From: an uncultured Rhodospirillaceae bacterium
GTDB taxonomy: Bacteria > Pseudomonadota > Alphaproteobacteria > Dongiales > Dongiaceae
Assembly (NCBI GenBank): GCA_902826565.1
Contig: CADEFF010000005.1
Location: 39,837 to 103,836 of the forward strand
Direction of reading: 5' to 3'
Length of the DNA stretch: 64,000 nt
Shown: piece by piece, positions 24,703-42,155 of the stretch
Numbering within the stretch: position 1 is the first letter of the stretch
Layout of the letters: each line of letters starts with the position of its first letter
Position numbers and translations under genes: made by a program
Notes under the pieces: model-generated
The model's database searches: none
What the model saw: only the letters and a program-made list of their open reading frames with translations
Told to the model about the DNA's origin: nothing

Positions 24703-24836
24703 GAAAGGGGCTTTGCGACACGACCCAAGACGAGAAATTCGGGAGCGACACCGTGCCCTCAGACGGGAGAGTGCCGCGGTCGATCCGGCCCCGGACGATG
24801 CGCGGCGCGCTTTACCTGTCCGCCGGGATATGGTAA

Positions 24837-24852
24837 TTGTATGATTGTATGA
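24837..24852 (+). promoter_or_regulatory. Tandem-octamer operator, site 1 (TTGTATGATTGTATGA)
   Basis: Two exact copies of TTGTATGA in direct repeat, 50 nt before the luciferase-like monooxygenase ATG and in the divergent gap with the kinase gene. The same 16-mer stands before the peptide-binding-protein gene and a 15/16 match before the phytanoyl-CoA dioxygenase gene. The repeats contain TATGAT, which resembles a -10 box, so a bound regulator would block polymerase. Confidence 0.7.
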
Positions 24853-24901
24853 CAGAACAGGTTTCCGACGGCGCGTCTCTCGGTCCGCGAAGGCATGCAC
24901 A

Positions 24902-26095
24902 ATGAAGATCGGCTATTTCTGCAATCCCAGCAATCCGGGGCATCAGCGCGACTATCGCAGCGTGATGAACGAGGTGCGCAACCTCTCGATCTTCTGCGAC
25001 AGGGCTGGCTTCGACAGCATCTGGTACGCCGAGCATCATTTCAGCATCTGGGGCCGCGAGGTTCTGCCCAACCCGCTGATCATGGCAGCCGATATCGCGG
25101 CGCGCACGCAACGCATCCGGATCGGCCTCGCGGCGGCGATCATCACCTTCTGGCATCCGCTGCGGCTCGCCGAAGACCTCGCGCTGCTTGACCAGCTCCT
25201 GGACGGTCGGCTCGAGATCGGCCTCGGGCGCGGCAATTACGGTATCGAAGGCACGAACCTCAATCCGAAGGCGGATCCGCGGAACCCCAAGCAGAACTTC
25301 GAGGTGTTCGCCGAGACGTTGCAGATCCTGAAGAAGGCTTTCACGGAGCGGCTCTTCAACCACCAGGGCACGCACTACACGGTGCCGACGCCCGGCTTCC
25401 AGTGGGACCGTGCGCATCCGGTCGACGACGCCGACTATATCGATGCGGCGACCAAGGAACTGAAATACATGTCGGTCTATCCGCGGCCGCTGCAGCAGCC
25501 CTACCCGCCGCTCTGGCAGGTGGTGGATTCGCCGCTCGCGATCGAATATGCGGCGCAGAACGACATGGGCATCATCATGTGGCGGCCGCCGGTGGAGACG
25601 CTGAAGGAGCGCTTCCGCCTCTATCAGGAAACGGCGGCCAAGGCGACCGGCAAGCCGGTGGCCTGGGGCGCCCGCACCAGCGTCGTGCGCGATACGTTCG
25701 TCGCGGACACCATGGAGCAGGCGCGCGACATGGCCGAACGCCATGTGATGCGCTACCTCAACTGGAGCAACTGGCGCGGGCCCAAGATCTATCTGAAGCC
25801 GGGCGAGGTGCTGACGCCGGCGCAGGAGCAGCAGCAGGTGAAGGAGCTCACCTTCGAGTTCGTGAAGGAGCGCTCGCTGCTCTTCGGCACGCCGGACTAT
25901 GTGGTCGACAAGATCGCCGAGCTGGAGGAGGAGCTCAGCATGGAGCAGCTCCTCGTCAACTCGACCTGGCTCGACATTCCGCACGATATCGCGATGCGCA
26001 GCATGCAGCTCTTCGCCGACAAGGTGCTGCCCCGCGTCCGGGGCGGCGCGCAGCCCGCGGCGATATCGCAGAAGATCGGCGCCGCCGCGCGGTAG
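24902..26095 (+). CDS. Luciferase-like flavin monooxygenase (LLM family)
   Basis: A 397-residue TIM-barrel monooxygenase that would use reduced FMN/F420-type flavin and O2. The start MKIGYFCNPSNPG, the AEHHF segment, DQLLDGRLEIGLGRGNYG and the later KATGKPVAWG region are typical of the bacterial luciferase alkanal/alkane monooxygenase group. The ATG at 24902 follows GAAGG and starts the first barrel strand; an in-frame ATG at 24845 lies within the operator region and is unlikely. It heads an operon with an amidohydrolase and a GFA protein. A flavin reductase gene is not seen nearby. Substrate unknown. Confidence 0.83.
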   Translation: MKIGYFCNPSNPGHQRDYRSVMNEVRNLSIFCDRAGFDSIWYAEHHFSIWGREVLPNPLIMAADIAARTQRIRIGLAAAIITFWHPLRLAEDLALLDQLLDGRLEIGLGRGNYGIEGTNLNPKADPRNPKQNFEVFAETLQILKKAFTERLFNHQGTHYTVPTPGFQWDRAHPVDDADYIDAATKELKYMSVYPRPLQQPYPPLWQVVDSPLAIEYAAQNDMGIIMWRPPVETLKERFRLYQETAAKATGKPVAWGARTSVVRDTFVADTMEQARDMAERHVMRYLNWSNWRGPKIYLKPGEVLTPAQEQQQVKELTFEFVKERSLLFGTPDYVVDKIAELEEELSMEQLLVNSTWLDIPHDIAMRSMQLFADKVLPRVRGGAQPAAISQKIGAAAR

Positions 26096-26168
26096 AATCC
26101 CCGGCGAGCGACCGGAAGCGTCGCGCCACCGCCTTCGCGCGGGCCCGCAACGGAGGCAAAACTTGGCT

Positions 26169-27032
26169 ATGGCCGGCAATGCCCGCGCACTGATCGACTG
26201 GCACAGCAATCTGTGGCTGCCCGAGCATCTGGGGCCCGAGCAGCGCGCCGAGATGGGTAGCAAGACCGGACGCAGCGTCGATGCGAGCCCGGCTGCCCAC
26301 AAGCGGCACGTGGCCGACATCTGCGAGAAGTTCGTGCTGGTCGCGATGCGGTGGAACCGGCTCGGCATCCATATCCCGAACGAGTTCGTCGCCGAGTATG
26401 CCGCCGACTACAAGGGCCGCGCCGTGGGCTTCGCCTGCGTCGATCCGCACGACGCGAACGCCCCCACCGAGCTCGAGCATGCGGTGGTCAAGCTCGGACT
26501 GCGCGGCCTCAAGCTCTCGCCCGTCTATGCCGGGTTCGATCCCTGGTCGCCGGAAGCCTGGCGGCTCTACGAGGTCGCGAACGCCCTCAAGGTGCCGCTG
26601 CTCTGGCACCAGTCGGCCGCCTATGCGCAGCAATCGATGCTCGAGTACGGCAACCCGATCCTGGTCGACCGGATCGCGCGGGCGTTCCCGCATCTGCGCA
26701 TGATCCTCGCCCATGTCGGCCAGCCCTGGACTGCCGAGACGGTCGTGCTGCTGCGCAAGCACAAGCAGATCTATGCCGATCTCTCGGCGCGCTACTATCG
26801 CAAATGGCAGTGCTACAACGCGCTGATGCTGGCGATCGACTATGGCGTGACGGGCCAGCTTCTGTTCGGCTCCGACTTCCCCATCCAGACGCCGAGCGCG
26901 GCACTCGACTCCTTCCGCGCCATCAACGACTGGGGAGAAGGCGTCACCATGCCGCGGATCCCGGACAGCCTCATCGACGACATCGTCTATAACCGTCCGC
27001 TCGAGCTGCTCTGGCCGGACGGGATCGGATGA
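26169..27032 (+). CDS. Amidohydrolase 2 family metal-dependent hydrolase/decarboxylase
   Basis: A 287-residue TIM-barrel enzyme of the amidohydrolase 2 (ACMSD-like) type. The N-terminal strand ALIDWHSNLW has the usual first metal His, and the later strands LLWHQS, RMILAHVGQ and LLFGSDFPI supply further His and Asp ligands. The first motif is DWHSN rather than the usual HxH, so the metal site is slightly altered. Members decarboxylate aromatic acids or hydrolyse lactones. GGAGG lies 7 nt before an in-frame TTG at 26163, which may be the true start; ATG at 26169 is given. Its stop overlaps the start of the GFA gene. Confidence 0.8.
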   Translation: MAGNARALIDWHSNLWLPEHLGPEQRAEMGSKTGRSVDASPAAHKRHVADICEKFVLVAMRWNRLGIHIPNEFVAEYAADYKGRAVGFACVDPHDANAPTELEHAVVKLGLRGLKLSPVYAGFDPWSPEAWRLYEVANALKVPLLWHQSAAYAQQSMLEYGNPILVDRIARAFPHLRMILAHVGQPWTAETVVLLRKHKQIYADLSARYYRKWQCYNALMLAIDYGVTGQLLFGSDFPIQTPSAALDSFRAINDWGEGVTMPRIPDSLIDDIVYNRPLELLWPDGIG

Positions 27033-27454
27033 CGGACGAAACCGAATGGCGGGGCGGCTGTCTCTGCGGCCATATCCGGTTCCGGGCGACCGGCACGCCC
27101 GTTCGCGTCGCCCATTGCCATTGCAGCATGTGCCGAAAGGCGAGCGGCGCCGTCGCCCTGACCTTCGCGACCTTTCCTGTGACTGCCGTCGTCTGGGAAA
27201 GTCCGCCGGCACGGCACGAGTCGAGCAAGGTCGCCTGGCGGGGTTTCTGCAGGCGCTGCGGCGGCACCCTCAGCTACATCTTCCGCCACCGCCCGACCGA
27301 GGTGATGCTGACCGTCGGCAGCTTCGACGAGCCCGAACGCCTGCCGCCGGCGCAATATCACTCCTGGACCTCGGAGCGGATCGGCTGGGCGCATCTCGAT
27401 CCCGAGCTTCCGGGCCATGAGCGCTGGCGCTACACCCCGAGCGCGCTCACGTGA
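27029..27454 (+). CDS. GFA/CENP-V family zinc protein
   Basis: A 141-residue protein of the glutathione-dependent formaldehyde-activating fold. Zinc-binding cysteines are seen in GGCLCGHIRF, HCHCSMCRKASG and FCRRCGGTLSY. The family name comes from spontaneous S-hydroxymethylglutathione chemistry; true enzymatic function is disputed. The ATGA overlap with the amidohydrolase stop shows operon coupling. A role in removing an aldehyde or thiol adduct made by the monooxygenase is an inference. Confidence 0.85.
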   Translation: MTDETEWRGGCLCGHIRFRATGTPVRVAHCHCSMCRKASGAVALTFATFPVTAVVWESPPARHESSKVAWRGFCRRCGGTLSYIFRHRPTEVMLTVGSFDEPERLPPAQYHSWTSERIGWAHLDPELPGHERWRYTPSALT

Positions 27455-27459
27455 GCGGG

Positions 27460-27879
27460 TCAGCGGGCGAGCGCCGCCTCGTTCTCCAGGATCGCCTTCT
27501 CCATAGAGGCGGAGTCGGTATAGGCCCTGACCTCGACCACCTTCCCGCCGGCGAAGCGGCAGATCCAGACATAGTTATTCTCGATCGGCTTGCCGTTCAG
27601 CGCTTCGGAGATCGAATGCATCTCGACGATGCCGTGATCGCCGGAGACGAACACGTTGCGGAGCGTGATCTTGAGCGGCACGTTCGGATTGCGGATCCTG
27701 TTGATCCGGCCATGCGCCTTGGCGAGGAACTCCTGCTTGCCGTTGTAGGTGGCGGCGAGCGTGTGCCTGCCCATGATGGTGACCTGGACGTCGTCGGAGA
27801 GCCCGGCGAAGTAGGCCTCGCGATTACCGGCTTCCAGATTGCGGAACAGGGCTTCGACATGGTCCTTGGTAAGGGTCAT
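27460..27879 (-). CDS. SnoaL-like (NTF2 superfamily) protein
   Basis: A 139-residue single-domain protein with the cone-shaped alpha+beta fold pattern: VEALFRNLEAGNREAYFAGL, then strand-rich VQVTIMGRHTLAATYNGK and FVSGDHGIVEMH. Family members are ketosteroid isomerase-like enzymes, polyketide cyclases or binding proteins; the catalytic residues cannot be assigned. It ends 5 nt from the convergent GFA gene. Function unknown. Confidence 0.75.
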   Translation of the reverse strand: MTLTKDHVEALFRNLEAGNREAYFAGLSDDVQVTIMGRHTLAATYNGKQEFLAKAHGRINRIRNPNVPLKITLRNVFVSGDHGIVEMHSISEALNGKPIENNYVWICRFAGGKVVEVRAYTDSASMEKAILENEAALAR

Positions 27880-27926
27880 CGATCGGGGTCCTTTGCGAGT
27901 GGCGGAGAAAGGCGGATGGAAGCGGC

Positions 27927-28802
27927 ATGACGGAGCTCGAGGCGCCCGAGGGGAAGTTCATCGAGGTGGCGGGCTACCGCACCTTCTATATCGATCGGGG
28001 CGAAGGACCGGTGCTGCTGCTCCTGCATGGGGCATCGGTCGCGATCGACGCCTATTCCACCTGGCATTCGCTGATCGAGGCGCTCGCGTCGCGCTTTCGC
28101 GTGGTCGCCTTCGACCAGCCCGGTTTCGGCCGCAGCGACATGGTGAAGGACCGGCGCTACGTGAACCGCCTCGGACGCGTGCCGCACGCCCTTGGCTTCC
28201 TCGATGCGCTCGGCATCCGGCGCGCGACCCTGGTCGGGCATTCCGAGGGCGCCTTCATGGCCACCCGCATGGCGATCGAACGGCCGGCTCTCGCGGCGGG
28301 TCTCGTCATCGTCACCAGCGGCGGCACGGCGCCGCGGCTCGGCGGTGCGCTCGACCGCGGCTGGATGGAGGCGAGCAAATCCGCCTACGACTATGGCGGC
28401 GGCGCCGACACCGAGGACGGATTCATCCGGGCGAACGGCAGTCTCAGCCGCGCCGCCGATCCCGCGCTGGAGCGGCTGCTGCGCGGGAACTACCGACGCG
28501 CCGCGGCGGCAGGGCAGATCGAGATGTTCCGCAACCTGTCGGCGGACGAGCGCGACCTCGATCTCTATGTCCGGCTTCAGGAAACCCATATCCATCCGCA
28601 TCTTGCCGCCCTCGAAACCCCGACCCTCATCGTCTGGGCCTCGAGCGACCCGACCGTGCCGGTCGAGCGCGGCGTCGCGCTCATGCGGCTCTTTCCGCGG
28701 GCGGACTTGCATGTGTTCGGCGGCGCGTCGCATATGGTGATGCTCGACCGCGCCGAGGGCTTCAATCGGTTGCTCGCCGGCTGGTGCGCCGGGCGCCGCT
28801 AG
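27927..28802 (+). CDS. Alpha/beta hydrolase
   Basis: A 291-residue serine hydrolase fold. The nucleophile elbow is GHSEGAF, the oxyanion loop LLHGAS, an acidic residue follows WASSDPTVP and a His lies in GASHMVML. Similar proteins are meta-cleavage product hydrolases and haloalkane- or epoxide-type hydrolases. It is divergent from the SnoaL-like gene (47 nt apart) and converges on another alpha/beta hydrolase, with which it shares four bases of overlapping stop codons. Confidence 0.84.
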   Translation: MTELEAPEGKFIEVAGYRTFYIDRGEGPVLLLLHGASVAIDAYSTWHSLIEALASRFRVVAFDQPGFGRSDMVKDRRYVNRLGRVPHALGFLDALGIRRATLVGHSEGAFMATRMAIERPALAAGLVIVTSGGTAPRLGGALDRGWMEASKSAYDYGGGADTEDGFIRANGSLSRAADPALERLLRGNYRRAAAAGQIEMFRNLSADERDLDLYVRLQETHIHPHLAALETPTLIVWASSDPTVPVERGVALMRLFPRADLHVFGGASHMVMLDRAEGFNRLLAGWCAGRR

Positions 28803-29596
28803 CGCGCGCATCGCCCGGCGAAGTCGCGCAAGGTCGCGACGAGCGTGTCGGCCGCTTCCAGCGGCAGCATATGCCGGATTCCCGGCAGGATGATCCGTTC
28901 GGCGCCCGCGATCCGGGATTGCATCGCTTCGGCCATGCGGGGCGTCTGGCCGGCATCCTCGTCGCCGGTCAGGATCAGGGTCGGTGCCTTGATGTCGGAC
29001 AAGCGGTGCAATAGCTGGCGGTCGTTGTCGGCATAGAGCCGATAGACATCGACATAGGATTGCGGATCGTTCGCGAGTGTTTTTGCGCGCCAGTAGGCGA
29101 CGACCTCGGGGTGCGCGGCCGCGTAGCCGGGCCCGAACCAGCGGCCGAGGGCACCATCGACCACGGCCGGCGCACCGCCGGCCGCAACCTGCTCGACGCG
29201 GAGATCGACGCGGGCCTGTTCCTCCGGCATGCGGGCGCAGGCCGATGCGGCGATCGCGAGCCCCGCGCAGCGCGCTGGGTAATCGAGGGCGAAGCACTGG
29301 GCGATGTTGCCGCCGAGCGAGAAGCCGCAGACCGTCGCCCGCTCGATGCCGACGTGATCGAGCAGGCCCGCGAGCTGCGCCGCGAACTGCGTGAAGCACC
29401 AGGGCGCCGGCACCCGCCCGCTGCGGCCATGGCCCCAGATATCGTAGCGGATGACCCGAAACCGGTCCTCGAGGGCGGCGGCATGCCGATCCCAAAGCGT
29501 GGCGTCTCCACCCATGCCGTGGATGAGCACGAGCGCGGGTCCCCGACCCGCGCTTTCGAAATAGGTCGGTCCTTGCGGCAGCGCTGCGACGGGCAT
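28799..29596 (-). CDS. Alpha/beta hydrolase (3-oxoadipate enol-lactonase-like)
   Basis: A 265-residue alpha/beta hydrolase. The elbow is GFSLGGN, the oxyanion loop LIHGMGGDATLW, the acid LTGDEDAG and the His GIRHMLPLEA, an order typical of PcaD-like lactonases and esterases. The ATG at 29596 begins MPVAALPQG; upstream codons merge with the regulator's tail region. It lies 76 nt downstream of the GntR regulator on the same strand. Confidence 0.82.
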   Translation of the reverse strand: MPVAALPQGPTYFESAGRGPALVLIHGMGGDATLWDRHAAALEDRFRVIRYDIWGHGRSGRVPAPWCFTQFAAQLAGLLDHVGIERATVCGFSLGGNIAQCFALDYPARCAGLAIAASACARMPEEQARVDLRVEQVAAGGAPAVVDGALGRWFGPGYAAAHPEVVAYWRAKTLANDPQSYVDVYRLYADNDRQLLHRLSDIKAPTLILTGDEDAGQTPRMAEAMQSRIAGAERIILPGIRHMLPLEAADTLVATLRDFAGRCAR

Positions 29597-29672
29597 CAGG
29601 AGACGGTCCGGAAAGGGAACGGGGTCGGGGTCCGATCGGGCACGGGCGGCGTGCCCAAGCCCGGGGCCGAAG

Positions 29673-30383
29673 CTAGGCCTTCGCCAGGGCGGCTTCGCTT
29701 CGAAGCAATTCGAGCGCGATCGCGCCCGCATGATCGACCTGCGCCACGCAGGCCGCCGCCGCCGCATCGGGATCCTTCGCCTTGATCGCCGCCACGATGC
29801 ACCGGAAATTCTCCACCGATCGGTGCTGGTCCTCGGCGGTATAGCGAAGCGTCGTGGTGGTGCGGAGATACTGCATGCGGGCCCGGAGCGAGCGGATCAT
29901 CGCGGCGGCCAGGTCGTTGCCGCAGCCGTCGAACATGATGTCGTAGAATGTGATCAGCGCCTCCAGGACCGTATCGACGTCGCGCGCCTTGATCGCCGTT
30001 TCGTAGCGCTTCGCCGCGTCCGCGAGGGCCGCCTGCTCGGCCGCCGTCGCCCGCTCCGCGAAGAGCCGTCCGACGAGCCCTTCGATCGCGCCGCGGAGCT
30101 GATAGATCTGCCGCGCATCGTCCACCGTCACCGTCGCCACCACCGTGCCGCGATGGGGAATGTTCTGCACCAGCCCCTCGGCCTCGAGATGCCGCAGCGC
30201 CTCGCGGAGCGAGGTCCGGCTCACCCCCGTGAGGTCGCAGAGCTCGCGCTCCACCAGCCGGTCGCCCGGCTTGAAATGCTGATCGAGAATCGCCTTGCGA
30301 AGCGCGTCGACGGTACGCTCGCGCGTCGTGGTGGTGGTGCCCGCAACCCGATAGGCATTTCTGTCCGGTGCGCCGGTCGCCAT
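29673..30383 (-). CDS. GntR-family transcriptional regulator (FadR/FCD type)
   Basis: A 236-residue regulator: winged helix at about 15-85 (DRLVERELCDLTGVSRTSLRE) and FCD ligand domain at about 95-225. It is encoded just downstream of the peptide-type binding protein and inside the region whose promoters share the TTGTATGA tandem repeat, so it is the best candidate for the protein that binds those sites. FadR-type operators usually contain TNGTNNNACNA-like half sites; TTGTATGA resembles one half. No copy of the repeat lies before this gene itself. Confidence 0.87.
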   Translation of the reverse strand: MATGAPDRNAYRVAGTTTTTRERTVDALRKAILDQHFKPGDRLVERELCDLTGVSRTSLREALRHLEAEGLVQNIPHRGTVVATVTVDDARQIYQLRGAIEGLVGRLFAERATAAEQAALADAAKRYETAIKARDVDTVLEALITFYDIMFDGCGNDLAAAMIRSLRARMQYLRTTTTLRYTAEDQHRSVENFRCIVAAIKAKDPDAAAAACVAQVDHAGAIALELLRSEAALAKA

Positions 30384-30560
30384 GACCCCGTGTCTCTCCA
30401 GATTGCAATCCGCTCATAATGCCGGCTTCCGAGGCGATGCGAAACCGTCGCGCGTGAAGCGCACGGGTCATTCTTGTGCCCGACGGCATCGAAATTTCCG
30501 ACGGGCGCGCCAGGCGGGCGACGGGACCTGGGCCGCCGACCCGCCGAGGCGAGCGCAATG

Positions 30561-32138
30561 CTAGCTCGTGAAGTGGAGCTGCTCGCCGATCCGATAGCCG
30601 GTGAAGACGAGCGTCGGGATCAGGCCCTTCAGGTTGCTGGCGCTGGCGAACAGAAAGTTGTTGAAGGCCGGGATCATGACGCCGCTGTCCTCCGACATCA
30701 TGAGCTGCAGCTCGCGATACATCTGCTTGCGCTTGGCATTGTCGAGCTCGGCGCGCGCCTGAAGCACCAGCTTGTCGAAATCGTCCCGGCGCCAGTGCGA
30801 TTCGTTCCAGTCGGCGCTCGAGATGAACATCAGCGACATGATCATGTCGGCCGTCGGCCGGCCGGCCCAGTAGGAACCGCAGAACGGCTTCTTCATCCAG
30901 ACGTCCGACCAGTAGCCATCCTCCGGCACCTTGTCGACGGCGATCTCGATGCCGGCCTTGGCCGCGCTCTCCTTGAAGAGCAGCGCGGCATCGACGGCAC
31001 CGGGGAAGGCGGCATCGGCGATGGTGAGCGTTACCGGACCGCTATGGCCCGATTTCTCGAAATGGAACTTCGCCTTGTCGGGGTCGTAACTGTGTTGCGG
31101 CAGGTCGTCGGCATAGAAGCGGTCGAGCGAGCTTACCGGCTGGTCGTTGCCGACCACGCCATAGCCGCCGAGCACCTTCTCCAGGATCTCCTCGCGGTCG
31201 AGCGCCCATTTCATCGCGAGGCGCATGTCGGCATTGTCGAACGGCTTGGCGTCGCAGAGCATCGACAGGGTGTAGAAGCCCGCGCTGGGGATATCGAGGA
31301 TCGTCAGGTCCGGGTTGTTCTTCAGCAGCCCCACGGTCTTCGGATCGACGCGGTTGATGAAATGCACCGTACCGGACTGCAGCGCGCTGGTCCGCGAGGT
31401 GAGGTCGTTGATGCCGACCGTCTCGACGCTGTCGACGAAACCGCGATTCTCCTTCCAGTAGTTCGGATTGCGCTTGGTGATCGCCCGAACGCCCGGATCG
31501 AAGGATTCGATCACGTAGCCGCCGGTGCCGATGCCCGCCTTCGGATCGCCACCCGCCGGCAGGATCAGCAGATGATAGTCCGTCAGGATGTAGGGCATGT
31601 CGGCGTTCGGCCCGTTCAGCGTAATGGTGACCTCGTGCGTATCGGTCGCCTTCATCTCCGTGACCGGCTCGAAGAAGGCCTTGGCGGCGGAGGTCGAATC
31701 CGGCTTGCGGTGATAGTTGAGGGAATCGATGACGTCTTCCGCCGTCAGCTCCTTGCCGTTGTGGAACTGCACGCCCTTGCGGATCTTGAAGACCCACTTG
31801 GTGGCCGTCGCATCGGTGTCCCAGCTTTCGGCCAGCTCCGGATCGAGCTCGCCCTTCTCGTTCAGTTCGACCAGCGAGTTCGCGAACTGATAGCCGAGGG
31901 TGTATTGCGCCGTGCAGCAATAGCTCATCGGGTCGAGCGTGTCGGTCGAGGATGAACCATCGAGACCGAGCACGAGATGCCCGCCCTTCTTCGGCGCGTC
32001 GTCGGCGAAGGCGGCGTTGCCGGCGAGCGTGCTCGCGAGCGCGGTCGAGACGCCGAGCGCCGCGGCGCGGCCCATGAACTCGCGGCGCGTCACGCGACCA
32101 TGCGTGGCGAGCCATTTCAGTTCGTCATGCCCAGACAT
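30561..32138 (-). CDS. Peptide/nickel-type ABC transporter substrate-binding protein (family 5)
   Basis: A 525-residue periplasmic binding protein. A Tat-type signal is visible (TRREFMGRAAALGVS, then alanine-rich to about 45), so it is probably exported folded. The body has the DppA/OppA layout, with FKIRKGVQFHNGKELTAEDV and later NPNYWKENRGF typical of the family. The ATG at 32138 follows GGAGG. A tandem-octamer operator sits 86-101 nt upstream. The ligand need not be a peptide; this family also imports opines, sugars and amines. Confidence 0.88.
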   Translation of the reverse strand: MSGHDELKWLATHGRVTRREFMGRAAALGVSTALASTLAGNAAFADDAPKKGGHLVLGLDGSSSTDTLDPMSYCCTAQYTLGYQFANSLVELNEKGELDPELAESWDTDATATKWVFKIRKGVQFHNGKELTAEDVIDSLNYHRKPDSTSAAKAFFEPVTEMKATDTHEVTITLNGPNADMPYILTDYHLLILPAGGDPKAGIGTGGYVIESFDPGVRAITKRNPNYWKENRGFVDSVETVGINDLTSRTSALQSGTVHFINRVDPKTVGLLKNNPDLTILDIPSAGFYTLSMLCDAKPFDNADMRLAMKWALDREEILEKVLGGYGVVGNDQPVSSLDRFYADDLPQHSYDPDKAKFHFEKSGHSGPVTLTIADAAFPGAVDAALLFKESAAKAGIEIAVDKVPEDGYWSDVWMKKPFCGSYWAGRPTADMIMSLMFISSADWNESHWRRDDFDKLVLQARAELDNAKRKQMYRELQLMMSEDSGVMIPAFNNFLFASASNLKGLIPTLVFTGYRIGEQLHFTS

Positions 32139-32223
32139 CGAGAATCCTCCCCTTCTTCTTTGAGTCGTGCCCGTCGCGACACCCGCTGCCGCTCGGAAGT
32201 CGGCCTTCCATGATGGTTTATAA

Positions 32224-32239
32224 TCATACAATCATACAA
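32224..32239 (-). promoter_or_regulatory. Tandem-octamer operator, site 2 (TTGTATGATTGTATGA)
   Basis: Identical over 16 bases to site 1 and in the same orientation relative to its gene, in the 193-nt gap between the ATPase stop and the binding-protein ATG. It implies that the binding-protein gene has its own regulated promoter. A TTGCCA (32248-32253, minus strand) upstream of a TATGAT is a possible promoter with wide (19 bp) spacing. Confidence 0.68.
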
Positions 32240-32331
32240 TCCTGGCCTGGCAAGCTAAATCGGGGCCGGGGCCGGCTTTGCCGGTCGCTCCCGGTTTTGC
32301 GCGCCGAAGGCGCCGCACCCGAGCGTGAAAC

Positions 32332-33999
32332 TTACGGCCGGGGGGCGGGGAGGCTGGCCGCGGGCTCGGGCGCGGTCGATGACACCTCGCGGGCGGCGAG
32401 GAGCCGGTCGAGCCAGCGCACATCCATCTCCGGAACCGAGGACAGCAGGAGCTCGGTATAGGGATGCCAGGGCGGGCTCAGGAGCTGCCGCTTGGCGCCG
32501 CGCTGCACGATCTCGCCCCGATACATCACGACGATCTCGTCGGCGATCGCCTTCACCGTCGCGAGATCGTGGGTGATGAAGAGATAGGAGAGGCCGGACT
32601 CGTTCTGGATGCGCAGCAGCAGCTTCAGGATTCCGTCGGCAACCAGCGGATCGAGCGCGCTCGTTATCTCGTCGCAGATCACGATCTCGGGCTCGGCCGC
32701 GAGCGCGCGGGCGATGCAGACGCGCTGCTTCTGCCCGCCCGAGAGCTCACCGGGCAGCCGTCGGACGAGGTCGCGCGGCAGCTCCACCATCTCGAGCAGG
32801 CCCTCGACCTTGCGAAGCTGCTCGGCGCCGCGCTGCCCGAAATAGAACTCCAGCGGGCGACCGAGAATCTCGCGGACAGTCTGGCGCGGATTGAGCGCGA
32901 TATCCGGCATCTGATAGATCATCTGCAGGCGCCGCAGCTCGGATTTCGACCGGCGCTTCAGCCGCTTGGCGAGCGGCCGTCCGTCGAGCAGGCATTCCCC
33001 CGCTTCCCACGGCAGGAGCCCGGTGAGCACGCGGGCGAGCGTCGATTTCCCCGATCCGGATTCGCCGACGATCGCAAGCGTGGTACCGCGATGCAGCTCG
33101 ATCGAGACGTCGCGCAGCACCCTTATGCCGTTTCCGTAGCTCGCCGTGACATGGCGCGCCTCGAGCTGGGGCGGCGTGGCGGGCTCGGGCTTTTCCGGCG
33201 CCATGGCGCGCCGCACATTGACGAGCTCGCGCGTGTAAGGCTCGGCCGGTTCCCGCAGAATCCGCTCCGCGGGGCCGGCCTCCACGAGCTTCCCGTGGCG
33301 CAGCACCATGATGCGGTCCGCGACCTGGGCGACCACCGCGAGATCGTGGCTGATATAAAGCGCCGCCATCCCCTCGCCCCGCATCGCCTCGCGGATCGCG
33401 GCCAGCACCTCGATCTGGGTGGTGACGTCGAGCGCGGTCGTCGGCTCGTCGAACACGATGAGGTCGGGCTTGCAGATCATCGCCATGGCGGTCATCGCCC
33501 GCTGTAGCTGCCCGCCCGACACCTGATGCGGGAAGCGCCGGCCGAAATGCTCCGGATCCGGCAGGCGCAGGCGGCGATAGAGGCGCTTTGCCGTCGCCAG
33601 TGCCTGCTCCGCCGACATGAGCCCGTGCGAAACCGGCACCTCGCAGATCTGCCGGTCGATGCGATGGGCGGGGTTGAAGGCGGCGGCCGCGCTCTGCGCG
33701 ACATAGGCCATCCGCACGCCCCGCAGCCGCCGGAGCTCGTCGCGGTCGGCGCCCGCGAGCTCCTGCCCGTTCGCCACGATCGAGCCGCCGGCGATGCGGC
33801 AGCCGCCGCGGGCATAGCCCATCGCCGCGAGGCCGATGGTGGATTTCCCGGCGCCGGATTCGCCGATCAGCCCCAGCACCTCGCCGCGATCGAGCTCGAG
33901 CGAGACGCCCTTGACGATCCCGTGCCACTGGCCCTGGCTGTCCTGTGCCTCGACATGCAGGTCCGCAATGCGGAGCACCTTGGCGTCGGCGGCCGTCAT
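32332..33999 (-). CDS. Fused peptide-type ABC transporter ATPase (DppD-DppF-like)
   Basis: A 555-residue protein with two nucleotide-binding domains in one chain. The first (about 10-265) has GESGAGKST and SGGQLQRAMTAMAM; the second (about 280-520) has GESGSGKST and LSGGQKQRVCIARAL. It replaces the separate D and F subunits of Dpp/Opp systems. The start overlaps the end of the permease gene by 4 nt (ATGA). Second-domain linker residues are typical and both domains look intact. Confidence 0.89.
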   Translation of the reverse strand: MTAADAKVLRIADLHVEAQDSQGQWHGIVKGVSLELDRGEVLGLIGESGAGKSTIGLAAMGYARGGCRIAGGSIVANGQELAGADRDELRRLRGVRMAYVAQSAAAAFNPAHRIDRQICEVPVSHGLMSAEQALATAKRLYRRLRLPDPEHFGRRFPHQVSGGQLQRAMTAMAMICKPDLIVFDEPTTALDVTTQIEVLAAIREAMRGEGMAALYISHDLAVVAQVADRIMVLRHGKLVEAGPAERILREPAEPYTRELVNVRRAMAPEKPEPATPPQLEARHVTASYGNGIRVLRDVSIELHRGTTLAIVGESGSGKSTLARVLTGLLPWEAGECLLDGRPLAKRLKRRSKSELRRLQMIYQMPDIALNPRQTVREILGRPLEFYFGQRGAEQLRKVEGLLEMVELPRDLVRRLPGELSGGQKQRVCIARALAAEPEIVICDEITSALDPLVADGILKLLLRIQNESGLSYLFITHDLATVKAIADEIVVMYRGEIVQRGAKRQLLSPPWHPYTELLLSSVPEMDVRWLDRLLAAREVSSTAPEPAASLPAPRP

Positions 34000-34805
34000 C
34001 GGACCCTCTTCAGGCCGGAACGGCTGAGCTGCCAGTCCACCAGCAGGTTGACGGCGATGGTGAGGGCGAAGATCGCGCCGGCCGGGATCAGCGGCAGCAC
34101 GAGCCCGAAGCCGATGGCGTTGGCGTTTTCGCGCACCATGCCGCCCCAGTCGGCCTGCGGCGGCTGGACCCCGACGCCGAGGAAGCTGACGGCGCTGAGG
34201 AAGAGGATGATGAAGCAGAAGCGAAGACCGAACTCCGAGATCAGCGGCGGAAGAGCGTTCGGCAACACCTCGCGACGCATCACCCAGCCGAGTCCTTCGC
34301 CGCGGAGTCGCGCGGCCTCGACATAATCCATCACCGCGATGTCGAGCGCGAGCGCACGGGCGAGACGGAAAACGCGCGTCGAATCGAGGATCGCCATGAC
34401 GAGGATCAGGATCACGGCCGAGGACGGCAGCAGCGCGAGCACGACGAGCGCGAAGATCAGCATCGGAATCGACATGAGGACGTCGACCGCCCGGCTGATG
34501 ATCTGATCGACGAATCCGCCCATCACGGCGGCAGTGAAACCCAAGGTCATGCCGATGGCGAAGGAAAGCAGCGTCGCGATGAGGGCGATGGAGATGGTGG
34601 TACGCGTGCCGTAGAGGAGGCGGCTCAACACGTCGCGGCCGAGACTGTCGGTCCCCAGCAGGAACTCGTGCGAGAAGGGCAGCCAGACGTCGCCTGCCGC
34701 CTCCGATTCGCCGTAGGGCGCGATCCAGGGGCCGATGACCGCGATCACGAGGAAGAACCCCACGATCGAGGCGCCGAACCAGAAGCTGAGTGATCGCAAG
34801 GTCAA
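33996..34805 (-). CDS. Peptide-type ABC transporter permease (DppC-like)
   Basis: A 269-residue inner-membrane permease with a single N-terminal helix, a periplasmic segment with LGTDSLGRDVLSRLLYGTR (the DppC mark) and five further helices. The permease loop EAARLRGEGLGWVMRREVLPN meets the ATPase. It begins 10 nt after the DppB-like stop. Confidence 0.88.
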   Translation of the reverse strand: MTLRSLSFWFGASIVGFFLVIAVIGPWIAPYGESEAAGDVWLPFSHEFLLGTDSLGRDVLSRLLYGTRTTISIALIATLLSFAIGMTLGFTAAVMGGFVDQIISRAVDVLMSIPMLIFALVVLALLPSSAVILILVMAILDSTRVFRLARALALDIAVMDYVEAARLRGEGLGWVMRREVLPNALPPLISEFGLRFCFIILFLSAVSFLGVGVQPPQADWGGMVRENANAIGFGLVLPLIPAGAIFALTIAVNLLVDWQLSRSGLKRVR

Positions 34806-34815
34806 ACCCCGTCTC

Positions 34816-35772
34816 CTACTTCGGGTGTCGCAGCCGCGGATTGGCGAGGGTCGAGAGGATGTCGGCGATCATGTTGAGCAGCGTGTAGGTGCCGGCGAAA
34901 ACGAGGCCGCAGGCCTGCACCACCGGCAGGTCGCGCTTGGCGACGTTGTCCACCATGAGCTGGCCGACGCCCGGATAGACGAACACCACCTCGACCACCA
35001 CCACGCCGACGATCAGATAGGCGAGGTTGAGCACCACCACGGTGATGATCGGCGCCAGCGCGTTCGGCAGCGCGTGCCACATCACGATCCGCGAGGCCGT
35101 CGCGCCCTTGAGCTCCGCCATCTCCACATAGGGGCTCGACATGACGTTGATCACCGCGGCGCGGGTCATCCGCATCATGTGCGCGAGCACCACCAGCGTC
35201 AGGGTCGCGCAGGGCAGGATGATGAGGACCAGCTTGTCGCCGAGCGGCATGCTCGGCGACAGCTTGGCGAGGGACGGCAGCCAGCGCAGCTTGACCGCGA
35301 AGACGAAGATGAGGATGTAGCCGACGAAGAACTCCGGCATCGAGATGGCGGCAAGCGTCGAGATCGAGATGGTCTTGTCGAGCCAGCTACCCTGGAAACG
35401 TGCCGCCACGAGACCGAGCCCGATCGCGAGCGGGACGGCGACGAGCGCCGCGGTGCCGGCGAGGAAGAGCGTGTTCTCGAGCCGCGGCGCGATCATCTCG
35501 ATCACCGGCTTGCCGGTGGTGAGCGAAGTGCCGAGATCGCCCTGCAGCAGGGACCCGAGCCATTGCAGGTAGCGGATATGGGCCGGCAGATCGAGGCCGA
35601 GCAGCTTGCGGAGGTTGTTGACCGTCTCCTCGGTGGCGCCCTGCCCCAGCACCGCCTCGGCCACATCGCCCGGAAGAATCTCCGTGCCGACGAAGATGAC
35701 GAGCGAGACCGCCAGCAGCGTCAGCGCGCCCAGCGCCAGGCGATGCAGGATGAGGCGAACGACGCCGTTCAT
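34816..35772 (-). CDS. Peptide-type ABC transporter permease (DppB-like)
   Basis: A 318-residue inner-membrane permease. The N-terminal helix (LALGALTLLAVSLVIFVGTE) is followed by the periplasmic GQGATEETVNNLRKLLGLD segment and five more helices, as in DppB. It follows the GMC oxidoreductase stop by 49 nt and is the first transporter gene in this transcription unit. Confidence 0.88.
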   Translation of the reverse strand: MNGVVRLILHRLALGALTLLAVSLVIFVGTEILPGDVAEAVLGQGATEETVNNLRKLLGLDLPAHIRYLQWLGSLLQGDLGTSLTTGKPVIEMIAPRLENTLFLAGTAALVAVPLAIGLGLVAARFQGSWLDKTISISTLAAISMPEFFVGYILIFVFAVKLRWLPSLAKLSPSMPLGDKLVLIILPCATLTLVVLAHMMRMTRAAVINVMSSPYVEMAELKGATASRIVMWHALPNALAPIITVVVLNLAYLIVGVVVVEVVFVYPGVGQLMVDNVAKRDLPVVQACGLVFAGTYTLLNMIADILSTLANPRLRHPK

Positions 35773-35821
35773 CGCCCGCTCCCGGCTCGCGACGGTGCGC
35801 GGAGCGCTCTCCGTCCGGCGG

Positions 35822-37429: not shown

Positions 37430-37457
37430 CCCCGCTACGGCGTCCCGTCCTGCCGCC

Positions 37458-38981
37458 TCATGCGCGCGATGCCCCGCCGCGGAGCGAGGCCGCGACCGCC
37501 GCCTGGTTCTTCATTCGCACATTGATCGACTTAATCTGGGTATAGCCGAGCAGCTCGTCGAAGCTGCCCTCGCGGCCGAGGCCGCTCTGCTTGTAGCCGC
37601 CGAAGGGCGAGCCGAGGGCGAAGCCGACCGGGCCGTTGACCTCGACATAGCCGACCTGCAGCGCCTCCGCGGTGCGGTGCGCGACATGAAGATCGTCGGT
37701 GACCAGCACGGCGGTCAGGCCGAAATGGAGGCCGTTCGCGATCTCCATCATCCGGTCGTAGTCGTCCCAGCCGAGCACGGTGATGATCGGGCCGAAGATC
37801 TCCTCCTGCGCGATCCGCATGGCGGGTTCGGCCTCGGCGAACACCGCCGGATTCATGAAGAAGCCGCGCTGCATCGCCGGATCGGCCGGGCGGTCGCCGC
37901 CAACCACGAGGCGCGCGCCGTCGGCACGGCCCGCCGCCAGGTAGTGCTGGCAACGGTCATAGAGCGCCTTGAAGCTGATCGCGCCCATCTCCGCGGCAGG
38001 ATCGGTCGGCATGGCGACCTTGATCTTTCCCACCCGCTCCGCCAGCCGCTCGACGAACCGCTTCTCCAGCGACCGGTGCACGAGCACGCGCGAGGTCGAG
38101 CCGCAGGAATGACCCTGCCAGAGGAAGTTCATGCCGGCGATGGCGATATCGACCGCCTGCTCGAGATCGGCATCGGGAAACACGATGAGCGGGTTCTTGC
38201 CGCCGAGCTCGAGGCTGAGCGGGACCAGCCGGTCGGAAGCCGCGCGCATCACCGCGCGTCCGGCCTCGACGCTGCCGATGAGCCCGATGCGGTTCACGCC
38301 CGGATGATTGATGAGCGGGACCGCCGTGCGGTCGTTGCCGCCCACCACGATGTTCAGCACGCCCGGCGGCAGCAGGGATCGGGCCAGCTCGCCGAAGCGC
38401 AGCGCCGAGAGCGGCGAATGGGGCGACGGTTTCATCACCACGCAATTGCCGGTCAGCAGCGGCGCGGCCAGCGCCGTCGCGAAGCTCGCGATCGGATGGT
38501 TGAAGGGCAGCAGGCGCGCGACCACGCCATAGGGCTCGCGACGGGTGTAGTGGAGATTGTTGTCGAGATGGGTGACCTCGCCCTTGATCTCGTGCGCGGC
38601 CGCCGCGAAATAGTTGATCATGTCGGCGCCGCCGGCCGCGTCGCGCCGCATCCCGCTATAGACATTGCCGGTGTCGAGCGTATCCAGCATGCCGAAGGCG
38701 TCGCCCTCGCGACGCAGGATCTCGACCAGGCTCCGCACCCGCGCATGGCGTTCGCCGAAGGGGAGCGACCGCCATGCCGGGAAAGCGGCCGCGGCCGCTT
38801 TCACCGCCCGATCGACATCGGCCGGCCCCGCATCGGGAATCGCCGCGAGCTTGTCGCCGGTCGCCGGATCGATGTCGTCGTAGCTTGCGCCGTCGACGGC
38901 CGGGACGAGCTCGCCGCCGATCAGCAGACGGAAATCGCCCCGGAGTAGCGCGGCCTTGTCCGGCAAGGTCATGTCGTTCAT
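37458..38981 (-). CDS. NAD(P)-dependent aldehyde dehydrogenase
   Basis: A 507-residue ALDH superfamily enzyme. The general base is in LELGGKNPLIVF and the nucleophile in QGHSCGSTSRVLV; EEIFGPI near the C-terminus is conserved. ATGs at 38981 and 38972 are both possible; AAGGGA precedes the first. Encoded with the GMC oxidoreductase, so it probably oxidises that enzyme's aldehyde product. Confidence 0.86.
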   Translation of the reverse strand: MNDMTLPDKAALLRGDFRLLIGGELVPAVDGASYDDIDPATGDKLAAIPDAGPADVDRAVKAAAAAFPAWRSLPFGERHARVRSLVEILRREGDAFGMLDTLDTGNVYSGMRRDAAGGADMINYFAAAAHEIKGEVTHLDNNLHYTRREPYGVVARLLPFNHPIASFATALAAPLLTGNCVVMKPSPHSPLSALRFGELARSLLPPGVLNIVVGGNDRTAVPLINHPGVNRIGLIGSVEAGRAVMRAASDRLVPLSLELGGKNPLIVFPDADLEQAVDIAIAGMNFLWQGHSCGSTSRVLVHRSLEKRFVERLAERVGKIKVAMPTDPAAEMGAISFKALYDRCQHYLAAGRADGARLVVGGDRPADPAMQRGFFMNPAVFAEAEPAMRIAQEEIFGPIITVLGWDDYDRMMEIANGLHFGLTAVLVTDDLHVAHRTAEALQVGYVEVNGPVGFALGSPFGGYKQSGLGREGSFDELLGYTQIKSINVRMKNQAAVAASLRGGASRA

Positions 38982-39000
38982 GTCGTTCCCTTTCGTCCGC

Positions 39001-39402
39001 TCACCTCGCGGCGTTCGTCTCGGGCTTGTAGGCGATCACCTCGATCTCGATCCGGACATCCACGAGAAAGTCGCTCACCAGCGCCGAGCGCGCCGGCGGA
39101 GCCTCGGGAAAATACTCGGCATAGACGGCGTTGAAGCCGGGGAAATCGGCCCGCTCCTTCAGCCAGACCATGGACTTCACCACGTCGTCGAGCGTGCAGC
39201 CCGCCTCCTTCAGGGTCGCCTTGATGAGGTCGAGCGTGACCCGCGTCTGCTCCTCGATCGTGCCGGTGGTCATCGGCGCGCCGTTCGCCAGCGGTACCTG
39301 CCCGGTCAGATAGATGAAGTCGCCGGCGCGCATGGCGCGCGAAAGGGAAAGGCGGCGTCCGTTGATGACGAGCGGTTCGCCGATCGGTTGCTTGCGCTTC
39401 AT
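39001..39402 (-). CDS. RidA family protein (second copy)
   Basis: A 133-residue RidA-fold protein, only moderately like the other copy near 18.8 kb. The substrate Arg lies in APPARSALVSDF and the Glu in RIEIEVIAYK, so the active-site pair is kept. It is the first gene of the minus-strand unit with the ALDH, GMC oxidoreductase and permeases, 19 nt ahead of the ALDH. A role in hydrolysing imine or enamine intermediates is likely from the family but not proven here. Confidence 0.84.
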   Translation of the reverse strand: MKRKQPIGEPLVINGRRLSLSRAMRAGDFIYLTGQVPLANGAPMTTGTIEEQTRVTLDLIKATLKEAGCTLDDVVKSMVWLKERADFPGFNAVYAEYFPEAPPARSALVSDFLVDVRIEIEVIAYKPETNAAR

Positions 39403-39638
39403 GATTCGTCAGGCCTTCGCTGGAGGTGAATGAGACGGGGGCTCGGCCGGCGTTGGCCGAGGCGTGCCGATCCGTCCGCCGATGGGTCGCCAACGGCGAT
39501 CATCGGACATGACGATGCGTTGCGCCATCGGGTCCGATGCGCCGTTGCCGGGCAACGCTTGTCACGTCATCGGGCGCTTCCTAAATTGGCCGCGCAGCGA
39601 GGCGATCGCCGCTGCCGCCCGCACGAAGGGAGACGGTC

Positions 39639-41129
39639 ATGACGGAAGCCGTGTTGAAGCGCTACCAGATGCTGATCGACGGACATTGGGTCGACGCCTC
39701 GGACGGCGGCAGGTTCGACAGCGTCAATCCCGCGAACGGGCAAGCCTGGGCGTCGATTCCGAACGCGACCGAGGCGGACGTCGATCGCGCGGTGCGGGCC
39801 GCCGACCGCGCCTTCTCGGAGGGCGCCTGGTCGCGCATGACCCCGACCGAGCGCGGCAAGCTGCTGCGACGGCTCGGCGATCTGCTGGCCGAGAAGTCCG
39901 AGGAGCTCGGGCGCGTCGAATCGATCGACACCGGCAAGCTCCTGAAGGAGACGCGCTGGCAGGCGCGCTACATCGCCGACTTCTTCCACTTCAATGCGGG
40001 GCTCGCGGACAAGGTCCATGGCGAGACCCTGCCGATCGACAAGCCCGATCTCTTCGTCTGCACGACGCGCGAGCCGCTGGGCGTGGTGGCGGCGGTGGTG
40101 CCCTGGAACTCGCAGCTCTTCCTCGTCGCGGTGAAGCTCGGTCCCGCGCTCGCCGCCGGCAACACCATCGTGCTCAAGGCCTCGGAACATGCCTCGGCGC
40201 CGATGCTCGAGTTCGGGCGTCTCTTCGAGGAAGCGGGGTTTCCGCCCGGCGTCGTCAATATCGTCACCGGCTTCGGCGAGCCTTGCGGCCGCGCTCTCAC
40301 GTCGCATCCGCTGGTCGCCCGGATCAGCTTCACCGGCGGGCTCGGCGCCGCCAGCCAGGTGATCCACAACTCTGCGCAGAATTTCGCGCAAGTCTCGCTC
40401 GAGCTCGGCGGCAAGTCGCCGGTCATGGTGTTCGAGGACGCCGATATCGAGAGCGCGACCAACGGCGTGATGGCCGGCATCTTCGGGGCGAGCGGGCAGA
40501 GCTGCGTCGCCGGATCGCGGCTCTATCTCCAGGAGAAGATCGCCGACAAGCTGCTCTCCGGCCTCGTCGATCGCGCGAAGGCGATCCGTATCGGCGATCC
40601 GCTTGCGGACGAAACCCAGATGGGGCCGCTCGCGACGCAAGGGCAGCTCTCCCGCATCGAAACCGCGGTCGCCGGCGCCCTCAAGGAGGGAGCGAAGCTG
40701 CTGCAAGGCGGCCGGCGTCCGCAGGGCCACGAAAAGGGCTGGTTCTATGAGCCGACCATCGTCGATTGCCCGGAGCAGCGGCTGCAGATCGTCGACACCG
40801 AGATGTTCGGCCCGGTGCTGAGCGTGCTGCGCTTCAAGGACGAGGAGGAGGTGGTCCGCCTCGCCAACGACACGCAGTACGGCCTCGCTTCCGGCATCTT
40901 CACCCGCGACGTCGGCCGCGCCATGCGCGTCGCCAAACGCACCCGTGCCGGCATCGTCTGGGTGAACACCTATCGCGTGGTGTCGCCGATCGCCGAGTTC
41001 GGCGGCTTCAAGCATAGCGGCTACGGGCGCGAGGGCGGGATGCAGGCGATCTACGATTTCACGCGGCCGAAGACGATCTGGATCAACACCTCGCCGCAGC
41101 CGATCGCCAATCCCTTCGTGATGCGGTGA
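39639..41129 (+). CDS. NAD(P)-dependent aldehyde dehydrogenase
   Basis: A 496-residue ALDH superfamily enzyme. LELGGKSPVMVF supplies the base and FGASGQSCVAGSRLYL the nucleophilic Cys. The pattern is of broad-range or hydroxymuconic/betaine aldehyde type enzymes. Divergent from the RidA-ALDH-GMC unit with a 236-nt gap that should contain both promoters. GGGAGA precedes the ATG. Confidence 0.86.
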   Translation: MTEAVLKRYQMLIDGHWVDASDGGRFDSVNPANGQAWASIPNATEADVDRAVRAADRAFSEGAWSRMTPTERGKLLRRLGDLLAEKSEELGRVESIDTGKLLKETRWQARYIADFFHFNAGLADKVHGETLPIDKPDLFVCTTREPLGVVAAVVPWNSQLFLVAVKLGPALAAGNTIVLKASEHASAPMLEFGRLFEEAGFPPGVVNIVTGFGEPCGRALTSHPLVARISFTGGLGAASQVIHNSAQNFAQVSLELGGKSPVMVFEDADIESATNGVMAGIFGASGQSCVAGSRLYLQEKIADKLLSGLVDRAKAIRIGDPLADETQMGPLATQGQLSRIETAVAGALKEGAKLLQGGRRPQGHEKGWFYEPTIVDCPEQRLQIVDTEMFGPVLSVLRFKDEEEVVRLANDTQYGLASGIFTRDVGRAMRVAKRTRAGIVWVNTYRVVSPIAEFGGFKHSGYGREGGMQAIYDFTRPKTIWINTSPQPIANPFVMR

Positions 41130-41182
41130 CGGCGGGCGGCGGGGAATCGACCTTCGCCCCCCGATCCCGCAAAAGCGCGCGC

Positions 41183-41204
41183 GCATCCCCCGCGAGGGGG
41201 ATGC
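41183..41204 (+). terminator. Stable hairpin after the aldehyde dehydrogenase gene
   Basis: A perfect 9-bp stem GCATCCCCC/GGGGGATGC closes a GCGA tetraloop about 55 nt past the stop codon. There is no T-run after it, so it may be a processing or mRNA-stabilising hairpin, or a weak terminator. Confidence 0.45.
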
Positions 41205-41294
41205 GGCGCTCCGATCGGTCGCAGAACGGGGTCTGACCATCCGGGAAAATGCCCAATGCCGCGAGGATTGCAGCCAGCTCGGTATCTGTTATTG

Positions 41295-41310
41295 TCATAC
41301 AATCATACAG
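41295..41310 (-). promoter_or_regulatory. Tandem-octamer operator, site 3 (15/16 match)
   Basis: TCATACAATCATACAG, the complement of sites 1 and 2 with one change at the end, 12 nt before the phytanoyl-CoA dioxygenase ATG. It is in the opposite orientation to its gene compared with the other two sites and lies very close to the ribosome binding site, so binding would act as a roadblock or block initiation near the transcription start. Confidence 0.65.
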
Positions 41311-41321
41311 AGGGGTTGCCA

Positions 41322-42155
41322 ATGGATTTGTCGAATGCCGCGCGCCGCTATCGCGTGACCCCCGAGCAGATCGCCGCCTACGAAACCGACGGCGCCGTGC
41401 TGCTGCCGCAAGTGGCCGATCCGCACTGGATCGAGCGCTGCCGTGCGGGCATCGAGCGCGCGCTCGTCGATGACGCGAGCGATGCCGCCAGCGCCTATTT
41501 CCTGCGGCTGCGCGTCTGGGAGAAGGATCCCGACCTGCGCGACTTCTGCCTGAAATCGCCGGTTCCGGCGATCGCCGCGCAGCTTTTGCAAAGCGACAAG
41601 ATCAACATGCTCTACGACCAGGTGTTCGTGAAGGAGCCCGGCACGGACGCGCCGACGCCCTGGCACAACGACCAGCCCTACTGGCCGGTGCGCGGCTCGC
41701 AGGTGGTGACGCTCTGGGTCGCGTTCGATCCGGTGACCCTCGAGAATGGCGGGCTCGAATTCATTCGCGGCTCGCACAAGCTCGCCAAATGGTATCGCCC
41801 CTATACCAGCGACGACGACGGCAATGTCACCGAGCAGTTCCACGGCGACGACGACGACAAATATGAGGACCTTCCGGACTTCGATGCGGAGCGCGACAAG
41901 CACGATCTGCTGTCCTGGGAGATGAAGCCGGGCGATGCGATCGCCTTCCACGCCTTCACCGTTCACGGCGCCCGCGGCAACCGTCGACGCGACACCCGCC
42001 GCCGCGCCTATGCGATCCGCATGACCGGCCGCGAGGTGCGCTACTACGGCGGCAAGGTCTGGAATCAATACATCATGAACCCGGCGCTGAAGACCGGCGA
42101 TCCGCTCGACAGCGCGCAGTATCCCGTGCTGTTCGGTCCCGGCGCCGCGGCCTGA
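41322..42155 (+). CDS. Phytanoyl-CoA dioxygenase (PhyH)-like Fe(II)/2-oxoglutarate oxygenase
   Basis: A 277-residue oxygenase. The iron site is HxD in WHNDQPYWPV and a distal His in FHAFTVHGA, followed by an Arg-rich strand that would hold 2-oxoglutarate. In bacteria this family hydroxylates many small molecules and natural products, not only phytanoyl-CoA. The ATG at 41322 follows AGGGG; upstream in-frame codons run across the operator. It appears to be transcribed alone under the tandem-octamer site. Confidence 0.85.
   Translation: MDLSNAARRYRVTPEQIAAYETDGAVLLPQVADPHWIERCRAGIERALVDDASDAASAYFLRLRVWEKDPDLRDFCLKSPVPAIAAQLLQSDKINMLYDQVFVKEPGTDAPTPWHNDQPYWPVRGSQVVTLWVAFDPVTLENGGLEFIRGSHKLAKWYRPYTSDDDGNVTEQFHGDDDDKYEDLPDFDAERDKHDLLSWEMKPGDAIAFHAFTVHGARGNRRRDTRRRAYAIRMTGREVRYYGGKVWNQYIMNPALKTGDPLDSAQYPVLFGPGAAA

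Follow-up and report, generated by a model that had tools for sequence, protein, structure and literature searches.

A Doubled Octamer as the Likely Operator of an FCD-Type GntR Regulator in an Uncultured Rhodospirillaceae Bacterium

Three doubled octamers and the genes that follow them

The stretch of DNA considered here, called the window throughout, comprises 64,000 nucleotides (nt) of contig CADEFF010000005.1 from an uncultured Rhodospirillaceae bacterium. Within it, three intergenic copies of a doubled octamer, TTGTATGA in tandem, stand before genes for a luciferase-like flavin monooxygenase, a peptide-type solute-binding protein, and a phytanoyl-CoA dioxygenase-like (PhyH) protein, and the same region encodes a GntR regulator with an FCD domain (table 1). 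The original prediction had reported two exact 16-mers and a 15/16 copy, and a scan of the window recovers them all: TTGTATGATTGTATGA is exact at sites 1 and 2, and its counterpart at site 3, CTGTATGATTGTATGA, matches in 15 of 16 positions. The description of these places as AT-rich islands likewise holds, as the 40 base pairs (bp) around each site have a guanine-plus-cytosine (GC) content of 35–40% in a window of 67%. The sites span 17 kb, and the start codons, counted on the sequence, are 11–85 nt away; the 16-mer is read in the direction of the gene in sites 1 and 2 and in the opposite direction in site 3. By eye, site 3 adjoins GAGGGG, the likely ribosome-binding stretch of the PhyH-like gene.

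In this genome the 16-mer is confined to these sites. Up to three mismatches bring nothing further in the window, where 100 shuffles gave a mean of 0.04 matches and a maximum of 1. In the whole assembly (4,185,230 bp in 162 contigs, 94.4% complete) the three sites are the only matches to TTGTATGATTGTATGA at up to two mismatches, so that a search for random copies elsewhere in the genome came back empty; a third mismatch adds one match on a different contig, and the reversed-pattern control yields none.

Table 1. Sites and genes in the window
Feature	Coordinates	Strand	Remarks
Site 1	24837..24852	+	TTGTATGA twice, then CA (ATTGT-ATG-ACAGA); 49 nt before luciferase-like ATG (24902)
Site 2	32224..32239	-	TTGTATGA twice, inverted arm not clear; 85 nt before binding-protein ATG (32138, -)
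Site 3	41295..41310	-	CTGTATGA-TTGTATGA, then CAAT; 11 nt before PhyH-like ATG (41322)
Luciferase-like flavin monooxygenase	24902..26095	+	PF00296, 2e-50; first gene after site 1
Amidohydrolase	26169..27032	+	PF04909; likely cotranscribed with luciferase-like gene
GFA-family protein	27029..27454	+	PF04828; 4-bp overlap with amidohydrolase gene
Alpha/beta hydrolase	28799..29599	-	PcaD-like but under the NCBIfam cut-off; downstream of GntR, same strand
GntR/FCD regulator	29673..30383	-	Pfam GntR 2.4e-19, FCD 7.3e-23; predicted local distance difference test (pLDDT) of model 90.8; proposed binder of the three sites
Family 5 (peptide-type) ATP-binding cassette (ABC) solute-binding protein	30561..32138	-	PF00496, 2.9e-74; first gene after site 2
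ABC transporter DppDF-like ATPase	32332-33999	-	Upstream of site 2
Two ABC permeases	33996-34805 and 34816-35772	-	Upstream of site 2
Aldehyde dehydrogenase	39639..41129	+	Directly upstream of site 3
Phytanoyl-CoA dioxygenase-like (PhyH)	41322..42155	+	PF05721, 1e-33; after site 3

Other genes of the neighborhood deserve mention. Facing site 1 is an APH(6)/hydroxyurea-kinase-like protein (23893-24900, minus strand; PF04655, 1.2e-79) that, judged by eye, could begin with the ATG at position 24702; site 1 would then lie in a divergent promoter. Relatives of the aldehyde dehydrogenase, 60–76% identical, occur in 5 of the 18 regulator loci among the fetched loci that were compared first. About 5 kb from site 1 lies a second GntR/FCD regulator (19027-19794, minus strand), whose neighbors, an open reading frame with an FAA-hydrolase domain, a Rieske ring-hydroxylating oxygenase, and an OpuAC-type binding protein with ABC genes, look like a separate betaine-like catabolic cluster.

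The regulator and the element in its relatives

The protein encoded at 29673-30383 scores 69.2 bits against GntR (cut-off 27) and 81.8 bits against FCD (cut-off 24.3), which places it in the FadR (FCD) subfamily, and it stays below the cut-offs of both the NanR family model (64.8 of 260 bits) and its best-scoring NCBIfam model, phnR_burk (TIGR03338; 113.9 of 271.5 bits). Among the 50 matches listed by Foldseek for its structural model, 7u5q, Atu1419, and 3ihu are foremost by E-value, and the highest query template modelling (TM) score belongs to AlkR, of the VanR group (0.79); Atu1419, also VanR, reaches 0.58–0.65, FadR entries 0.42–0.52, and NanR 0.37–0.43. The C-terminal part of the model has seven helix segments, one of them of 8 residues, against the six that define the VanR group. 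FCD proteins usually carry a metal-binding histidine; the FCD domain of this protein reads YDIMFD at that place, and its effector may bind without the histidine. One source labels some homologues "trigonelline degradation regulator"; we do not take this label as a function, and no fitting paper is among those listed by a literature search on trigonelline-type regulators.

Among the genomes searched, the closest homologue of the regulator (58% identical) is encoded in G004, a member of the same family; closer ones (68–98%) are present in the protein database. In G004 the regulator gene is divergent from a luciferase-like gene 70% identical to that of the window, and the promoter between them holds TATGATTGTATGACAG, with 16 of 16 positions as in site 1. 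The 15-bp core ends 52 nt before the luciferase-like ATG there and 47 nt before it in the window, and this promoter has the sole copy of the core in G004 at up to two mismatches. The first octamer is not intact in G004, where the full 16-mer matches at three mismatches. With up to two mismatches allowed, a search for the core TATGATTGTATGACA in G000, G004, and G280 (~12.5 Mb together) found five places. Three of them are the window sites, and the other two are the G004 promoter and a place ~1.7 kb from the regulator gene of G280; the reversed control found none in these genomes.

These results bear on the possibility that the copies arose by chance or as repeats and have no regulatory role. 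Among 385 genomes of the class, 21 including this one have a match to the 16-mer at up to one mismatch (3 for the reversed control), and many of the 20 other genomes are AT-rich. The exception among these 20 genomes is G280, already known from the protein search, which has an FCD-GntR gene near its copy; the other 19 have no such gene at an E-value of 1e-4 in the stretch fetched around the copy (3.7–20 kb each, some bounded by contig ends). The 16-mer at one mismatch was thus rejected as a marker of the system by itself, and a scan of 61 relatives at up to two mismatches was uninformative outside the own genome. A chance origin is nevertheless disfavored for the three window sites by the window, assembly, and core searches: shuffles of this GC-rich DNA hardly ever yield even one match, all three copies stand directly before start codons, no long flanking identity among them is seen by eye, and the core is kept in the G004 promoter. 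We consider such an origin very improbable.

A further line of evidence comes from seven loci of public genomes that were fetched by the regulator protein alone. One of them, from Vreelandella maris, contains the only exact 16-mer of that genome, 93 nt before a tripartite ATP-independent periplasmic (TRAP) transporter operon and 1.3 kb from the gene for a 38% identical regulator homologue, where base composition predicts ~4e-5 exact copies for the seven loci together. The V. maris site is an exact tandem without the inverted arm. At an E-value of 1e-40, V. maris itself is the one genome among 101 of its family with a match to its regulator. The G004 and V. maris lines are mutually independent.

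A plain count of k-mers near regulators was swamped by codon bias, and we therefore adopted a test of near versus far occurrence. In 28 of 29 homologue loci (the window is excluded, and L038 had no match at the threshold), TTGTATGA ranks first for closeness to the regulator among the 9,088 8-mers present near it in at least four loci, with 14 copies within 2 kb and 6 beyond, spread over nine loci (p=4.2e-6, ~0.04 after correction). The loci of G004 and V. maris are part of this set, so the test is not independent of those two lines. By eye, in the translation or the DNA, the distant loci L032 (2747-3643) and L092 (from ~11824) each have a 3-hydroxyisobutyrate-dehydrogenase-like gene near the tandem site.

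The phylogeny of the regulators points in the same direction. When 29 rows were labeled by operator type (TTGTATGA, TGGTATACCA-like, or TAATACNGTATTA), the types required 4 changes on the tree, and 200 label shuffles never required fewer than 7 (mean 11.9); they occupy largely separate parts of the tree, in which the sister of the window's GntR is the G004 protein. This is a quick tree, with 15 of 51 inner branches starred and 21 open. It and the 50-locus counts given below also exclude L035-L037 (<70 bits), and the label test excludes the window, L034 (where TTGTATGA is part of the regulator gene itself), and every row of type "none." At residue 58 of the recognition helix, the 11 TTGTATGA rows have S, L, T, or C, and 10 of the 15 TGGTATACCA rows have V; six columns, mostly outside that helix, separate the two types better, and residue 58 as a specificity residue is a lead only. 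Four related FCD-GntR genes (L055-L058; 47–51% identical, one being a paralogue in this genome) carry TAATAC(C/G)GTATTA, an everted half-site pair, directly before the gene start.

Based on genome uniqueness, the G004 and V. maris sites, the enrichment in the first homologue set, and the tree labels, we favor the hypothesis that the doubled octamer is the operator of the FCD-type GntR at 29673-30383, probably a repressor of three transcription units. The original prediction of one regulon under this protein is therefore supported, still as a prediction. Several observations weigh against it. A phylum-wide search supplied a second set of 25 loci (29 were fetched; L144, the V. maris contig again, and L147-L149, same-genus copies, were dropped), in which TTGTATGA is unenriched (1 near, 3 far) and TGGTATACCA is favored instead. 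The octamer thus belongs to part of the family only, and the expected conservation in relatives holds for the G004 promoter and the core search and fails for this set; the tree offers a possible reason for the TGGTATACCA result, supporting but not decisive. In the first set, omission of L032 and L052 (the G004 and V. maris loci) leaves 10 near and 5 far copies (p=2e-4), and omission of L092 (G280) as well leaves 7 and 5 (p=0.006), which would fail correction. Because related loci share ancestry, neither the counts on the tree nor those of the enrichment test are fully independent. V. maris has 7 matches at up to three mismatches against 11 for the reversed control, and hence only its exact copy counts. 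The 19 one-mismatch genomes without a nearby FCD-GntR count here too: in other genomes almost every one-mismatch copy can be put down to chance, though hardly the three considered here. Finally, sigma-70 scans at all three sites were empty, and the permease and ATPase genes (32332..35772) have no octamer copy of their own.

The regulon could also be real and be read by another FCD-GntR, either a 49% identical paralogue encoded on contig C3 or the protein at 19027-19794. The C3 paralogue is the strongest rival, because the V. maris regulator, which lies beside an exact 16-mer, scores 143.7 bits against it, the best in this genome, and 116.7 bits against the window's GntR. However, the promoter of the paralogue has a different element, TAATACNGTATTA, common to three relatives of its branch, and its 20-kb locus lacks TTGTATGA. 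The second regulator has proximity to site 1 in its favor, but it reaches at most 60.8 bits against the homologue set, compared with 254 bits between the window's GntR and its sister, and its recognition helix is different. Moreover, the G004 site stands between the homologues of the window's regulator and monooxygenase genes. Control by either of the two other proteins seems unlikely.

Half-site register and proposed regulation

The operator consensus of the FadR (FCD) subfamily is the palindrome TKGT-N2/3-ACMA (PMC4494728). Read on the minus strand, site 3 is ATTGT-ATG-ACAAT and holds the GT-N3-AC palindrome in full; the consensus is complete there, is kept in part by site 1 (ATTGT-ATG-ACA), and is absent from site 2, and the G280 site reads TTGT-ATG-ACAA. 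In all three window sites the first octamer has the same orientation as the second and lies exactly 8 bp upstream of it. The original characterization as a direct repeat rather than the usual palindrome is accordingly half right: the two octamers at 8 bp stand in every site, whereas the denial of a palindrome does not fit site 3 and fits site 1 only in part. It needs refining, and the sequences are better described as a putative palindromic half-site with an extra in-phase half-site 8 bp upstream.

The 8-bp step recurs around the regulators of the relatives. In 50 loci, the DNA up to 2.5 kb from the regulator contains 16 same-strand GTAT pairs with an offset of 8; the remaining 28 offsets between 4 and 32 have 2.5 pairs on average and 6 at most (offset 16). 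L034 alone supplies 4 of the 16, and in loci above 50% GC there are 11 pairs at offset 8 against at most 5 at any other. A point to the contrary is that offset 8 also leads beyond 2.5 kb, more weakly (12 against a mean of ~4; 673 kb), in part because GTAT-N4-GTATACCA sites lie there in L121-L124. The consensus flanking 29 GntR palindromes in these loci is GTATTA, and 13 of the 29 have GTAT exactly 8 bp out on a side. By eye, L139, L142, and L146 have up to three more units at 8-bp steps beside TGGTATACCA (e.g., GTATGATT, GACTTATG, GTATGATG), which we read as a longer array in the same register.

It could be argued that the palindrome alone (ATTGT-N3-ACAAT and weaker forms) is functional and that the upstream octamer is a by-product, for example of local duplication, with no role. 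The palindrome is indeed complete in site 3, a palindrome of this kind is bound by AlkR of the VanR group, and for 16 of the 29 palindromes in the relatives' loci neither side has a perfect GTAT at -8. Yet the exact tandem persists without the inverted arm in site 2 and V. maris, and GTAT occurs at exactly -8 on 16 of 58 palindrome sides as compared with 0–3 at the other offsets from 5 to 30. We therefore regard a functionless upstream octamer as improbable, to about the same degree as control by another regulator. A more general idea, which we advance tentatively and hold to be possible rather than probable, is that this FCD-GntR branch reads an 8-bp lattice of GTAT half-sites on which dimers might dock at every step; half-sites could then be inverted, everted, or tandem, and an operator could lose its palindrome and persist as a direct repeat, as in site 2 and V. 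maris. The excerpts retrieved in our literature searches give no account of a fixed 8-bp half-site register in this branch beyond the boxes of PMC4494728 and the NanR repeats, and neither the 15-mer TGTATGATTGTATGA nor TGGTATACCA together with GntR turned up in the literature searched.

Under the regulon hypothesis that we favor, dimers of the regulator would recognize TTGTATGA half-sites. The second octamer would be a half-site of a VanR/FadR-type palindrome (ATTGT-N3-ACAAT) that site 3 has in full, site 1 in part, and site 2 in degenerate form, and the first octamer would be an additional half-site, so that two dimers could sit side by side on the repeated half-sites. In site 3 one dimer would occupy the palindrome and another the upstream octamer; in site 2, as in V. 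maris, the tandem alone would be left. We infer repression because the sites sit 11–85 nt before start codons, and site 3 may be near enough to its start codon to block transcription or its start. The repressed units would be luciferase-like monooxygenase-amidohydrolase-GFA, solute-binding protein-GntR-hydrolase, and PhyH-like dioxygenase. The regulator's own gene lies downstream of site 2 on the same strand, and the protein therefore likely regulates itself through that site. The genes may serve the uptake and oxidation of a single compound, and this substrate would release the regulator from the operator. Scattered oxidation and uptake genes would in this way be tied to one regulator with a likely operator, which would make the substrate testable by reporter induction.

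Comparison with known FCD-GntR operators

AlkR of Pseudomonas aeruginosa (VanR group) was footprinted on ATTGTCAGACAAT (PMC12042122), and the operator of Atu1419 is ATGTATACAT (PMC7797058). Both systems resemble the present one in the combination of a GntR and FCD protein with an ATTGT half-site and a 3-nt center, as in site 3; they differ in that here a second half-site of the same orientation lies 8 bp upstream in all three sites and that the inverted arm is lost in site 2. The Escherichia coli regulator NanR binds direct repeats, TGGTATAW or (GGTATA)3 (PMC8012715; PMC4494728). Its strong binding needs at least two repeats, dimers bind the tandem repeats cooperatively, and this cooperativity requires an N-terminal extension of 32 residues (PMC8012715). 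The likeness to NanR consists in an FCD-type GntR and a short, directly repeated word built around GTAT, and the window sites, each with two octamers at 8 bp, have the two or more repeats at a close fixed step that mark the NanR type. In contrast to NanR, the protein at 29673-30383 has no N-terminal extension of that length, as its GntR domain begins at residue 21.

Closest in arrangement are the additional boxes that Suvorova et al. described 7–12 nt from the center of GntR palindromes, leaving their function open (PMC4494728). Here, too, an extra box stands in register beside a GntR palindrome, but this box equals the main one (exactly in two sites, in 7 of 8 positions in the other) and lies at a step of 8 bp; in site 2 it outlives the palindrome. 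The window thereby offers a natural case for the question of what extra half-sites beside GntR palindromes do: its three sites lead, in one genome, from a complete palindrome with an extra box to an extra box with hardly any palindrome. We propose that this putative operator adds a variant to the known FCD-GntR operators, that of a half-site of the same orientation at a fixed distance of 8 bp.

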